A stretch of 34,910 nucleotides of DNA, taken from contig PNOB01000006.1 in assembly GCA_013824585.1 (NCBI GenBank), positions 1-34,910 on the forward strand. Direction: 5' to 3'. The stretch comes from Desulfobacterium sp. (lineage in GTDB: Bacteria > Desulfobacterota > Desulfobacteria > Desulfobacterales > SURF-7). Shown here one piece after another: positions 18,797 to 34,910 of this stretch (position 1 is the first letter of the stretch; every line of letters begins with the position of its first letter). A model generated the notes under the pieces. That model searched no databases and was not told where the DNA came from. It saw only the letters and a program-made list of their open reading frames with translations. A program made the translations under genes and the position numbers.

Positions 18797-18850
18797 ACGG
18801 TTTGCCCGTTTTGGCCGGTTGACCGGGGTAATTTTACCATATGTAGGGGC

Positions 18851-19053
18851 ATAAGCGCTAACTTAAATTGATTATTAGTCATTAACAATTGATTATTGTT
18901 TTATCATTTGTATGTGGGGGCCTATAGTCGCGATATTCATGCTTTGATCAAAATTTTATTTTGCGGCTGGAAGACCATTTTCACATGAAACCCGAAAATT
19001 ATAAAATAATCAATAATCAACAATTAATGGTTAATTGTTAAGGTAGCGCTTAT
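18851..19053. repeat. MITE-like palindromic element, copy 4 (203 bp)
   Basis: ATAAGCGCTAACTTAAATTGATTATTAGTCATTAAC...GTTAATTGTTAAGGTAGCGCTTAT; central REP pair degenerate (TGTGGGGGCCTATAGTCGCGA / TTGCGGCTGGAAGACC). Confidence 0.85.
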
Positions 19054-19063
19054 GCACTTGTAG

Positions 19064-19085
19064 GGGCAGGCCCCTGTGCCTGCCC
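19064..19085. repeat. REP-like hairpin GGGCAGGC-CCCTGT-GCCTGCCC
   Basis: Perfect 8-bp stem within TGTAGGGGCAGGCCCCTGTGCCTGCCC; TGTAGGGGC also occurs at 18842-18850 on the other side of copy 4. Confidence 0.6.
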
Positions 19086-19138
19086 TTTGTATGACCAGAT
19101 ATGGTTCCAACATAAAAACAAACCGGAATTAGAAGCCA

Positions 19139-31315: not shown

Positions 31316-31392
<77 letters not shown>

Positions 31393-31403
31393 TTAATAAA
31401 AAC

Positions 31404-31437
31404 AGGGACTTAGGATAGATTCTGAGTCCCTTTTTTA
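31404..31437 (+). terminator. Rho-independent terminator after tRNA-fMet
   Basis: AGGGACTTA / TGAGTCCCT stem followed by TTTTTT. Confidence 0.8.
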
Positions 31438-31994
31438 TTGGGTAGAAAAATAATACCCAACACTATACCCAACACTCAGTTTTAAAACAGACAAAAATCA
31501 GGTGAAATTTTATTTTTGGAAATGAGACTTTCGAAGGGTAAAAATTGGATTTTCCGGATTTAGGTACAGTTGATATTTCTTTTTCGAATCAATAGCCAGA
31601 TTATCCTAAAAATAGGTTTCGTTAATCTGGAAGAATCACAGGATCGGACGTCAAGTGATTTCGTGAGATCGGTTCTTCATATCGCATTTGTACAATTTAT
31701 TTATGAATGATGCATACTCCCAGATTCCAAAATATGATTACTGAATCAATAAAAAAATATTCATCGCGTCCTACCCTATACCTGCGATTATAAAGCAGTA
31801 TTTTTGATTATTTTTTCATCATCACATAATATCCATAGGGATGGTGATCCGGTTGCAACACAACGGTTTTTACTTTACAGACACCTTAAATTGCACCTAT
31901 AAATACTGTTGACACGCAAGGCGCTTTTCACATATCTTCATCTTCAAAAAACTCATTGCATAATGCTTGCAAGTGCATAAGTGAGCAGATTAGA

Positions 31995-32060
31995 AGATCC
32001 CGGTGCGGAAAAACCGCACCGGGATCTGTGAGGGGGCGGTCGGGTAACTGGCCGTTCTAC
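31995..32060 (+). ncRNA. Possible group II intron domain V/VI-like remnant
   Basis: 14-bp perfect hairpin AGATCCCGGTGCGG-AAAAA-CCGCACCGGGATCT followed by TGTGAGGGGGCGGTCGGGTAACTGGCCGTTCTAC; arrangement resembles intron 3' ends but lacks the DV bulge and canonical AGC triad. Confidence 0.35.
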
Positions 32061-32112
32061 CTTGATTCCAAGGGCTTGGAATTTATGATTAGAGGAAAGG
32101 GGCTAAAAAACG

Positions 32113-32619
32113 ATGGACAATGAAATTTGTCTAGCATGTGGTGGACCTCTTAAGGACGGTAAAGACTATATTGAAGGAAGGTGCAATGATTGTAGGGAAA
32201 AAGGTTTAAAGGCGAATAAAAAAATTATTAAACAACAAGAAAGAATGCGTAAGGGTATTAAGAAATCCAACTTGAAAGTTATTGGGATAAAACTAATTAT
32301 CGCATGCTTTTTGGTGCCGTTGATAATTCAAGTAAACCTTGATAAGCCAATACCATACTATTACCTAATTCCACTCGACGTCCTACGCCTTGGGATCTTA
32401 GTAGGTATTGGATGTCTCATAGTGCACTATCGAAGCTTAAAGGCTATTGGTATAACACTAATTATCTCGTTCGCATTGCTGAGACCGATAATTAAAGATA
32501 AACTTGATCAACCTGATCAACCAATGCCATACTATTACGATATTCCACTCGTCCTTGGGACTTGCGCAGGCTTTGGATGTCTGTTAGCACACTATCTAAG
32601 GCGGAAACAGTCAAAATAG
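32113..32619 (+). CDS. Hypothetical membrane protein with N-terminal Cys pairs and an internal tandem duplication
   Basis: CLACGG...CNDC N-terminus (zinc-ribbon-like); two ~55-aa repeats LKVIGIKLIIA...MPYYY...GCLIVHY and LKAIGITLIIS...MPYYY...GCLLAHY. Confidence 0.7.
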   Translation: MDNEICLACGGPLKDGKDYIEGRCNDCREKGLKANKKIIKQQERMRKGIKKSNLKVIGIKLIIACFLVPLIIQVNLDKPIPYYYLIPLDVLRLGILVGIGCLIVHYRSLKAIGITLIISFALLRPIIKDKLDQPDQPMPYYYDIPLVLGTCAGFGCLLAHYLRRKQSK

Positions 32620-32652
32620 GTCTTAGCTTTAAATTTGATCAAAAACTTTAGT

Positions 32653-32729
32653 GCATAACAGAATAGCAGCCGTGCCGATTCGCCCATTTCCGAGCCGCAG
32701 CGTCGAGATCCGGCAGGCCACAGTTGAGG
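32653..32729 (+). other. Degenerate attC-like site (candidate 1)
   Basis: GCATAAC ... GCCGTGCCG ... CGGCAGGC ... GTTGAGG; arms pair with one extra base on the left arm; directly downstream of the 32113-32619 ORF. Confidence 0.35.
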
Positions 32730-32957
32730 TAATCTTCGGTTAATGTCTTGATAGAGATCCAATTATGTGCAAAATACAAATACAAATCAAAAATGTTGGT
32801 CACGAAAAAAATTTTCGATGAATATTCTTCAAGCGGTGAGCCGCTCTGATATTTTTGAGCAAAATTACGTGGAAAAATTCGAAAGATCAGGAAAAATTAA
32901 AAGTCCTTTAATGGTTGGGTGGAAATGACCAAGATCCTATCTTTAAAAAAAATATAT

Positions 32958-33030
32958 ATCTAACCACGGCGCTGCACCGTACGCTGACCGGCGCTACGCT
33001 TGGTTGGCTCCGGTGAGCTTTTAGTTAGCC
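32958..33030 (+). other. attC-like site (candidate 2)
   Basis: R'' ATCTAAC, L'' GCTGCACCG, L' CCGGTGAGC, R' GTTAGCC; arms are inverted repeats with one extrahelical G on the left arm; next gene starts 18 bp downstream. Confidence 0.65.
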
Positions 33031-33047
33031 CGAGAAAGGAGAATGTC

Positions 33048-33605
33048 ATGAGTAGACTAAATTTCGATCCCCTTATAATCCCCAAAGTCACCGCACTTCT
33101 CGCTATGTGTGTTCTCATTGGCTGCGTTTCCACGGTGCCAAAGACGTCTCAGCAAGTCTCCGAGCCACCAACTTCTTCGGCCCAGTCCAGCATGTCTGCG
33201 GAACAACGCCAAGCAAAAATTAATGCCGATATTAGTTTCATTGTCAATGCTCTTGTGGTGTATAGAAAAGATCATGGGGCGTATCCAACAGACCAACAAG
33301 GACTGCAGATCCTATTAACCGCCAGTGCATCTGGGCCGCCATACGCAAATGCATTGCCCAAAACACCGTGGGGACGGGACTACCTTTACAAGACCACAGA
33401 CGTATTGCTGATATGCTCTGCACGATCCCAACCCATGGGTATTGGCTGGAAGTGGCGTGAGGGAAACCAGCAGTGGGAAAGGACAGACAACGGCTACATC
33501 GTCCAGGTCTTGACACCAGAGGGTACTTATAACTCCATGCCTAAGAATCAGTTTGGTGACCTGCCGCCCGATGTCTATATCGCCCCGGCTAGTGGAATCA
33601 AATAA
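33048..33605 (+). CDS. Lipoprotein with a GspG-like (type II secretion major pseudopilin) C-terminal domain
   Basis: Lipobox LIGC; ADISFIVNALVVYRKDHGAYPTDQQGLQILLT...LPKTPWGRDYLY matches GspG; RBS AAAGGAG. Confidence 0.75.
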   Translation: MSRLNFDPLIIPKVTALLAMCVLIGCVSTVPKTSQQVSEPPTSSAQSSMSAEQRQAKINADISFIVNALVVYRKDHGAYPTDQQGLQILLTASASGPPYANALPKTPWGRDYLYKTTDVLLICSARSQPMGIGWKWREGNQQWERTDNGYIVQVLTPEGTYNSMPKNQFGDLPPDVYIAPASGIK

Positions 33606-33613
33606 ACATGAGC

Positions 33614-33669
33614 GGCTAACGAGCCGTTCCACCAGATCGCTTACGCTCCTGGTGAACTTGGTGTTCGGG
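33614..33669 (+). other. attC-like site (candidate 3)
   Basis: GGCTAAC-GAGCC-GTTCCACCAG ... CTGGTGAAC-TTGGT-GTTCGGG; paired arms with one extrahelical C; sits between adjacent small genes. Confidence 0.55.
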
Positions 33670-33693
33670 GAACAAAAAAGAAAGGAGAAAGAC

Positions 33694-34296
33694 ATGCCAA
33701 CACGCCTAAGACAGATAGCTCTCGTCGGCTGTTTCAGCGTGATGATAATAACGTTCGGTTGTGGAAAAAGCGAAGAGTCGAAACCGGCAACTACAGGAGC
33801 TCAGCCGACTGCGACAGCTCAACCTGCCGTAAAGCCAAAGAAGCAATCGCCGGAGGCCATCGCAGCAAAGTTGGACAAAATGGGGGTGAAAGTGCAGGTC
33901 AAGTCAGAGGACGAGTTCCTCATAACAGAAGGTTTTCCCTACCAGAAGGACCTTAGCCTCGACTACGTCATCGAGATTGCCAAGATCGAGAAGGGCGTGT
34001 TCACGGCCTCTGAAAACAGCAACGTTCCTATAGAAATGATGGGTATGGTTTACGCTGTCGCAGGAGGTTCCTTCATACCCAAGTGCAACGCGAAGGAAGG
34101 TACGCGAACACTCGCAGATACGGTCGGGAACACGTGGATTTTTAAAGAATCAGGCATGGAGTTCAATGTCTACCTGCCTGCGGCGACGAGTCCAGTCCTC
34201 ATTGTCCGCTCAAGGACGGAGGGAGCGATAATCAACTTCACCAAGGAGGGAGTGCGGCTCAAAGGATTCATCCTGAAGCCGTTTGGAGAACCGTAA
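33694..34296 (+). CDS. Hypothetical lipoprotein
   Basis: MPTRLRQIALVGCFSVMIITFGCGKSEESKP lipobox, low-complexity linker, then a globular domain; RBS AAAGGAG. Confidence 0.7.
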   Translation: MPTRLRQIALVGCFSVMIITFGCGKSEESKPATTGAQPTATAQPAVKPKKQSPEAIAAKLDKMGVKVQVKSEDEFLITEGFPYQKDLSLDYVIEIAKIEKGVFTASENSNVPIEMMGMVYAVAGGSFIPKCNAKEGTRTLADTVGNTWIFKESGMEFNVYLPAATSPVLIVRSRTEGAIINFTKEGVRLKGFILKPFGEP

Positions 34297-34434
34297 ACCA
34301 CCACCGAGTACACAGAACGCAGAATGGAGACACCGAACGTTGGGCATCGATTCATGATAGACCCAAATATAGACGGTAGCCCCACTGTCTCTTCGAGATT
34401 GGTACGGAATCAACTGACTAAGGAGGAAAATGGG

Positions 34435-34910
34435 ATGAGTTGCTTGGATAAAAGCGTCAAATGCTTGGTTATGATGTTTGTAATATCTTGTATCTTCCTG
34501 TCAGCCTTTGCATACGCTGGCATTGACGACGAGTTGGCAGCAGTTACCAAAAAAGGTAACGCAATAGAAATCCGCCCCCTAATAGATAAAGGGGCCAACG
34601 TCAACGCACGAGATACTGATGACTCAACAATACTGATGGTAGCATCGGACTACGGTCATATAGAAGCCGTGAAGATATTGCTTGCGAAAGGCGCTGATGT
34701 TAATGCAAAGGCTAACAATGGATTTACAGCTCTAATGACTGCATCAAACAAAGGGCATTCAGAAGTCGTGAAAATACTGCTTGAAAGCGGGGCTGCCGTA
34801 AACGCCAAGACAAAAGAGGGATTTACGCCTTTAATGTATGCGTCATTGAAAGGACACGCGCAGGTTGCGGAATCATTACTTGCTAAGAGGGCGAGTCTTA
34901 ACGACAAAGA
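34435..34910 (+). CDS. Secreted ankyrin-repeat protein (3' end outside the window; absent from the ORF track)
   Basis: MSCLDKSVKCLVMMFVISCIFLSAFAYAG signal peptide; repeats of GADVNAKANNGFTALMTASNKGHSEVVKILLESGAAVNAKTKEGFTPLMYAS. Confidence 0.9.
   Translation, partial: MSCLDKSVKCLVMMFVISCIFLSAFAYAGIDDELAAVTKKGNAIEIRPLIDKGANVNARDTDDSTILMVASDYGHIEAVKILLAKGADVNAKANNGFTALMTASNKGHSEVVKILLESGAAVNAKTKEGFTPLMYASLKGHAQVAESLLAKRASLNDK

Follow-up and report, generated by a model that had tools for sequence, protein, structure and literature searches.

The right-hand end of the analysed DNA very probably holds the left part of a true array of integron cassettes with no linked integrase (CALIN), because two attC sites are present and there is no integrase on the 34.9 kb contig. 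CALIN is the term that Cury et al. (IntegronFinder) reportedly use for a cluster of attC sites lacking an integron-integrase. The array alone is an ordinary member of this known kind; the unusual part is the dispersed attI platforms found in the genus.

The window is the whole of contig C6 (34,910 nucleotides), from a genome of 4.16 Mb in 505 contigs that is 89.5% complete. The features discussed are as follows (R1 and R2 are the covariance models described below).

31316-31389, + strand: tRNA-Met (Rfam tRNA, 63 bits; ARAGORN finds tRNA-Met at the corresponding position of three congeners)
31570-34910, unstranded: species-specific insertion, left part only, as the contig ends within it (homology to the congeners stops at 31439-31570)
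32113-32619, + strand: 168-residue protein, probable first cassette gene (open reading frame; direct repeats D1-D3 with a spacing of 165-174 nt)
32653-32729, + strand: proposed degenerate attC site, unsupported (no R1 or R2 match at E ≤ 10)
32818-32928, + strand: 36-codon open frame in an otherwise non-coding stretch ahead of an attC site
32958-33030, + strand: attC site (R1, R2, geometry filter)
33025-33663, + strand: one complete gene cassette, G/TTAGCC to G/TTCGGG (the slash marks the crossover point), bounded by the two attC sites
33048-33605, + strand: 185-residue putative lipoprotein with a GspG (T2SSG) globular domain and no prepilin start (PF08334, E = 6.2e-12)
33614-33669, + strand: attC site (R1, R2, geometry filter)
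33694-34296, + strand: 200-residue putative lipoprotein (no Pfam or NCBIfam match)
34339-34345, + strand: GTTGGGC, proposed as a fourth R' box, unsupported as attC (no model match, no fold)
34435-34910, + strand: secreted ankyrin-repeat protein, cut by the contig end (PF00023, E = 2.1e-29)

The window is 80-88% identical to three congeners (G001, G002 and G003) up to about 180 bp past the tRNA-Met, which is the last conserved gene ahead of the species-specific region. Homology breaks at window position 31439 against G002, 31566 against G001 and 31570 against G003, where the G003 contig itself nearly ends. Beyond the breakpoint there are different genes in G001 and G002. The insertion is placed between the tRNA-Met and an outer-membrane-type gene, and its cargo lies entirely on the + strand: the 168-residue protein, the GspG-domain lipoprotein, the second lipoprotein and the start of the ankyrin-repeat gene. 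A shared gene order in close relatives, which the sequence-only reading had named as the mark of ordinary conserved chromosome, is not found after the tRNA-Met, as all three congeners diverge at 31439-31570. The tRNA-Met was considered as an attachment site for the island and rejected, since in two congeners the homology extends roughly 180 bp further than the tRNA.

Arrays linked to an integrase in relatives supplied the sites for two attC covariance models, with the window sequence excluded. The source arrays lie upstream of integron integrases; sites were gathered by a pairing scan and those with clear arms were kept. R1 is an alignment of 27 sites with long loops shortened, and R2 consists of the best 49 sites from a narrower R1 search of the relatives' arrays. 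On integrase-linked arrays R1 gave 63 sites at E ≤ 1, with 61 of the 63 on the strand predicted from the integrase. The R1 search of the window covered both strands with filters off and used a short calibration, so that its E-values are rough; the R2 search was a joint one over 85 kb. Both models match 32958-33030 (R1, 23.8 bits, E = 1.8e-4; R2, 19.5 bits, E = 0.029) and 33614-33669 (R1, 14.8 bits, E = 0.064; R2, 22.9 bits, E = 0.0042), and the next-best matches in the window are far weaker (none below E = 2.7 for R1; E = 8.3 for R2). At 33614-33669 the R1 match covers the core (33618-33665), and for both sites the R2 matches end exactly at the coordinates given by the sequence-only reading. 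That reading had proposed four sites and a check with a covariance model; the two matched by models from relatives stand and the other two, at 32653-32729 and 34339, fall.

The site at 32958-33030 consists of R'' ATCTAAC, L'' GCT[G]CACCG, L' CGGTGAGC and R' GTTAGCC, and that at 33614-33669 of L'' GTT[C]CACCAG, L' CTGGTGAAC and R' GTTCGGG, with poor R''/R' pairing in the latter. The left arm is canonical in both: three pairs, one extrahelical base and then at least five pairs. Among the training sites the extrahelical base follows AAC at a distance of nine or, in some, ten nucleotides; in the window it is ten after AAC at 32958-33030 and nine at 33614-33669. A geometry filter (eight Watson-Crick pairs around one extrahelical base, spacers of 5-6), which was designed after the sites had been seen and is thus a check and not an independent discovery, selects these two sites only in the whole window on either strand. 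A search of the window with Rfam gave no attC match, a DNA similarity search of the genome found no second copy of an attC site, and a loose pairing scan for sites was too noisy for use. The candidate at 32653-32729 was rejected, as neither model matches it and its fold is no better than those of shuffles (z = 0.06). GTTGGGC at 34339-34345 was likewise rejected: it has no left half, and none of 200 shuffles of 34289-34345 folds less well. A further possible degenerate site near 32050, with a left half like that of 33617, is unsupported by R1, R2 or folding.

The crossover point of integron recombination sits in R', and the limits of the complete cassette are placed at 33025 and 33663 because of this known position. 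This segment has the anatomy of an integron cassette, a single gene plus attC, and its mobilization by IntI is putative. The encoded 185-residue protein scores below the TIGR01710 cut-off; a sample of 242 other genomes of the order holds no relatives, and only distant GspG-like relatives were seen, those in plasmids and viral contigs being just GspG pseudopilins. No relatives of the 200-residue lipoprotein were seen in that sample of 242 genomes, in plasmids or in viral contigs. The 168-residue protein has a cysteine-rich N-terminus (CxxC..CxxC) followed by two diverged tandem hydrophobic modules of about 55 residues each, and no Pfam match. The cargo had been read as proteins of unknown role; this description still fits except for two proteins, with a type II secretion GspG domain and ankyrin repeats, respectively. 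The + strand genes do have their own ribosome-binding sites, as had been claimed, and two 18-nt leaders (33033-33050 and 33679-33696) are 89% identical.

The sequence-only reading had seen no intI in the window, and a tblastn search with the IntI of the congeners agrees, with nothing significant in 31389-32800; its overall interpretation as a CALIN holds for the entire contig, with the array cut by the contig end. Integron integrases (TIGR02249, E ≤ 1e-40) are present in 85 of 146 related genomes, including the three congeners. The TIGR02249 matches in this genome are XerD (C128), XerC (C211), a phage-type integrase (C388) and a small fragment (C77). The search for intI elsewhere in the genome, which had also been proposed, recovered no intact copy from this 89.5% complete assembly, in whose missing 10% or so one could lie; in place of an intI with the IntI-specific domain there are truncated IntI remnants only. 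On C365 an attI is followed by about 52 intI codons and then by unrelated sequence, with a cassette gene and an attC site in the canonical layout at the contig edge. C68 has attI and an intI with an internal deletion, with VapBC adjoining the attI, and C289 has attI and a decayed start of intI. The same genome has more attC arrays, each in one orientation, on C13, C132, C285 and C97; HigBA and GNAT genes are part of what they carry.

G001, G002 and G003 each have just one substantial, recoverable intI locus, which is shared and runs array, attI, intI, a cysteine-rich protein (in G001 and G003), desulfoferrodoxin and TolC, with HlyD- and AcrB-type pump genes in addition in G001; the gene names are what we take the translations to be. 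A search with this locus places the TolC gene of the present genome at the very end of C250. In G003 (L056:1-1451) a tyrosine recombinase and a putative IS91-type transposase gene stand next to attI, where the array should start.

The genus also has many dispersed attI copies. The attI/5'-intI region of G001 matches 17 places in G001, 20 in G002, two in G003 and four in this genome (G000), some of which are pieces of one copy. An attI profile placed about 33 dispersed copies in the examined loci of four genomes of the genus: in G001 and G002 (L151-L182) and on C365, C68, C289, C132 and C299 of G000. Most of these have their own first cassette gene, with intI truncated or missing. attC sites lie within 2.5 kb at 18 of the 33 copies, and all 32 attC sites found at this distance lie on the side and strand of the array. 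In many copies the junction reads ATGG/TT and continues into a variable R' box (GTTATGC, GTTGGGC, GTTAGGC, GTTCGGT), as would be expected if different cassettes had recombined at G/TT. Of 31 copies, 27 have a gene of at least 50 residues that starts no more than 120 nt from the boundary, in most cases no more than 40 nt; the 120-nt rule is satisfied by 56% of random positions, which makes this count a weaker support.

The sequence common to the attI copies extends for about 250-320 bp on the intI side, and on the cassette side only two short pairs match among all copies. In the orthologous pairs L152/L167, L163/L179, L120/L176 and L180/L183 the flank on the intI side is collinear (about 80-88% identity) and the cassette side has no similarity; L180 (GTTATGC) versus L183 (GTTGGGC) gives the cleanest junction. 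For L152/L167 a single alignment of 1955 bp spans the point at which intI is cut; the truncation is therefore older than the split, and the cassettes changed afterwards. The simplest account of these comparisons, and our best reading of them, is that an integrase encoded elsewhere would recombine cassettes at the dispersed attI sites. In the literature searched, which was limited in extent, we found no description of one integrase with many satellite attI sites. The attI/intI leader at L055, L120 and L122 has two or three copies of a repeat like TCAGGGAAAAAGTGCCCGA; these are possible integrase- or regulator-binding repeats.

The sequence of G001 just past the homology break is located on C299 in this genome, and the end of C299 carries an attI relic (E = 7e-7) with a DUF4240 gene that starts 18 nt away and reads away from attI. 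C6 and C299 therefore probably flank one insertion, and the attI relic would probably lie at the right border of the insertion that holds the window array. The window array reads rightwards and the cassette of the C299 relic leftwards, so the two are not one simple array; an attI-profile search gave no match in the window array region, its left edge included. The arrangement would mean two converging arrays, an inverted part of the island or a different route of arrival for the window cassettes, and the window array is only partially tied to a satellite attI.

We envisage that the two attC sites would have served as folded substrates for an integron integrase, which would have inserted at least one complete cassette, that of the GspG-domain lipoprotein (33025-33663), and probably its neighbours too. 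This integrase would have acted in trans, from elsewhere in the genome. The genus has one IntI locus per genome, beside desulfoferrodoxin and a TolC-type efflux operon, plus many scattered attI copies, with their own intI missing or truncated, at which cassettes come and go. The array was probably built up at such a satellite attI platform, or along with one, and would have been stranded as intI decayed; we give this satellite origin an even chance. Equally balanced, in our estimate, is the wider proposal that the integron in this genus is distributed, with one integrase and up to about 20 attI platforms per genome carrying short arrays that turn over, and that the window CALIN is the product of one such platform after loss of the integrase.

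Other explanations of the array were weighed against this one. It is hardly credible that the stem-loops are accidental or plain intergenic hairpins and that the genes are ordinary species-specific ones. The sites do fold just moderately better than shuffles as DNA (z = -1.5 for 32958-33030 and -2.7 for 33614-33669), and the short calibration leaves the E-values rough, but two exact attC geometries stand in series in one orientation and flank a single gene, and 500 dinucleotide shuffles of the island gave a mean of 0.004 sites passing the geometry filter and never two. Insertion by the genome's integrase at an off-target, non-attI chromosomal site is unlikely, although less so: it would agree with the missing attI at the left edge of the array, and it is among the origins that have been put forward for CALINs (PMC8618304). 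The attI relic at the opposite border of the island argues against it.

It is also improbable, to a degree between those two, that the array belongs to an ordinary complete chromosomal integron and appears integrase-less merely through broken assembly. A canonical integron has intI and attI at the 5' end of the array; here that end lies inside the window, beside conserved chromosome, and neither intI nor an attI next to the first cassette is present. The intI of the congeners is at another locus (desulfoferrodoxin, TolC), and the integrase remnants recovered here are truncated. On the other side, the contig ends inside the array, which could belong to a larger element, the arrays on C13 and C132 are also near contig ends while C285 carries arrays along most of its length, and a fragmented, 89.5% complete assembly may omit an intact intI. 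Draft assemblies are known to inflate CALIN counts (PMC9024848).

Like other CALINs, the window array has two or more attC sites in a row, genes that resemble cassette genes and no integrase on its contig. It differs in its setting, a genus with dispersed satellite attI copies, and in the attI relic at the far border of the insertion. To our knowledge, CALINs are not normally described with attI. With the sedentary chromosomal integron at the desulfoferrodoxin/TolC locus of G001-G003 it shares the attC style, cassette genes and first-cassette junctions; unlike that integron it has no adjacent integrase or attI, and the arrays are short and scattered. Pseudogenes of intI formed by intragenomic duplication have been reported (Nemergut et al., 2008; PMC2426708) and are similar in that truncated intI copies occur beside one complete gene. 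They differ from the present case, in which attI and a short 5' part of intI are conserved at up to about 20 places per genome and most attI copies carry their own cassette genes.

By itself the window array is one more CALIN, with secreted cargo, and its setting matters more. Three origins of CALINs have been proposed: off-target insertion, loss of intI and rearrangement. If the satellite origin is true, a satellite attI platform followed by integrase loss would be a route beyond these three. In genomes of this genus the origin of CALINs is a question open to direct tests. Should a single integrase supply many attI sites, the genus would break the rule of one attI per integrase, many cassettes and not just one would lie close to an attI, and arrays counted as integrase-less relics may be live satellites.

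Two kinds of repeat were seen in passing. Beside the window array, a 327 bp segment (31625-31951) is 74% identical to positions 13693-14016 of C77 in the same genome (L006:1911-2234); the C77 copy lies about 330 bp after the C-terminal fragment of a recombinase, which is truncated and present as this fragment only. Short interspersed repeats of about 55-65 bp occur at 406-633, 2019-2974 and 18845-19120 of the window, on many other contigs and in a congener.
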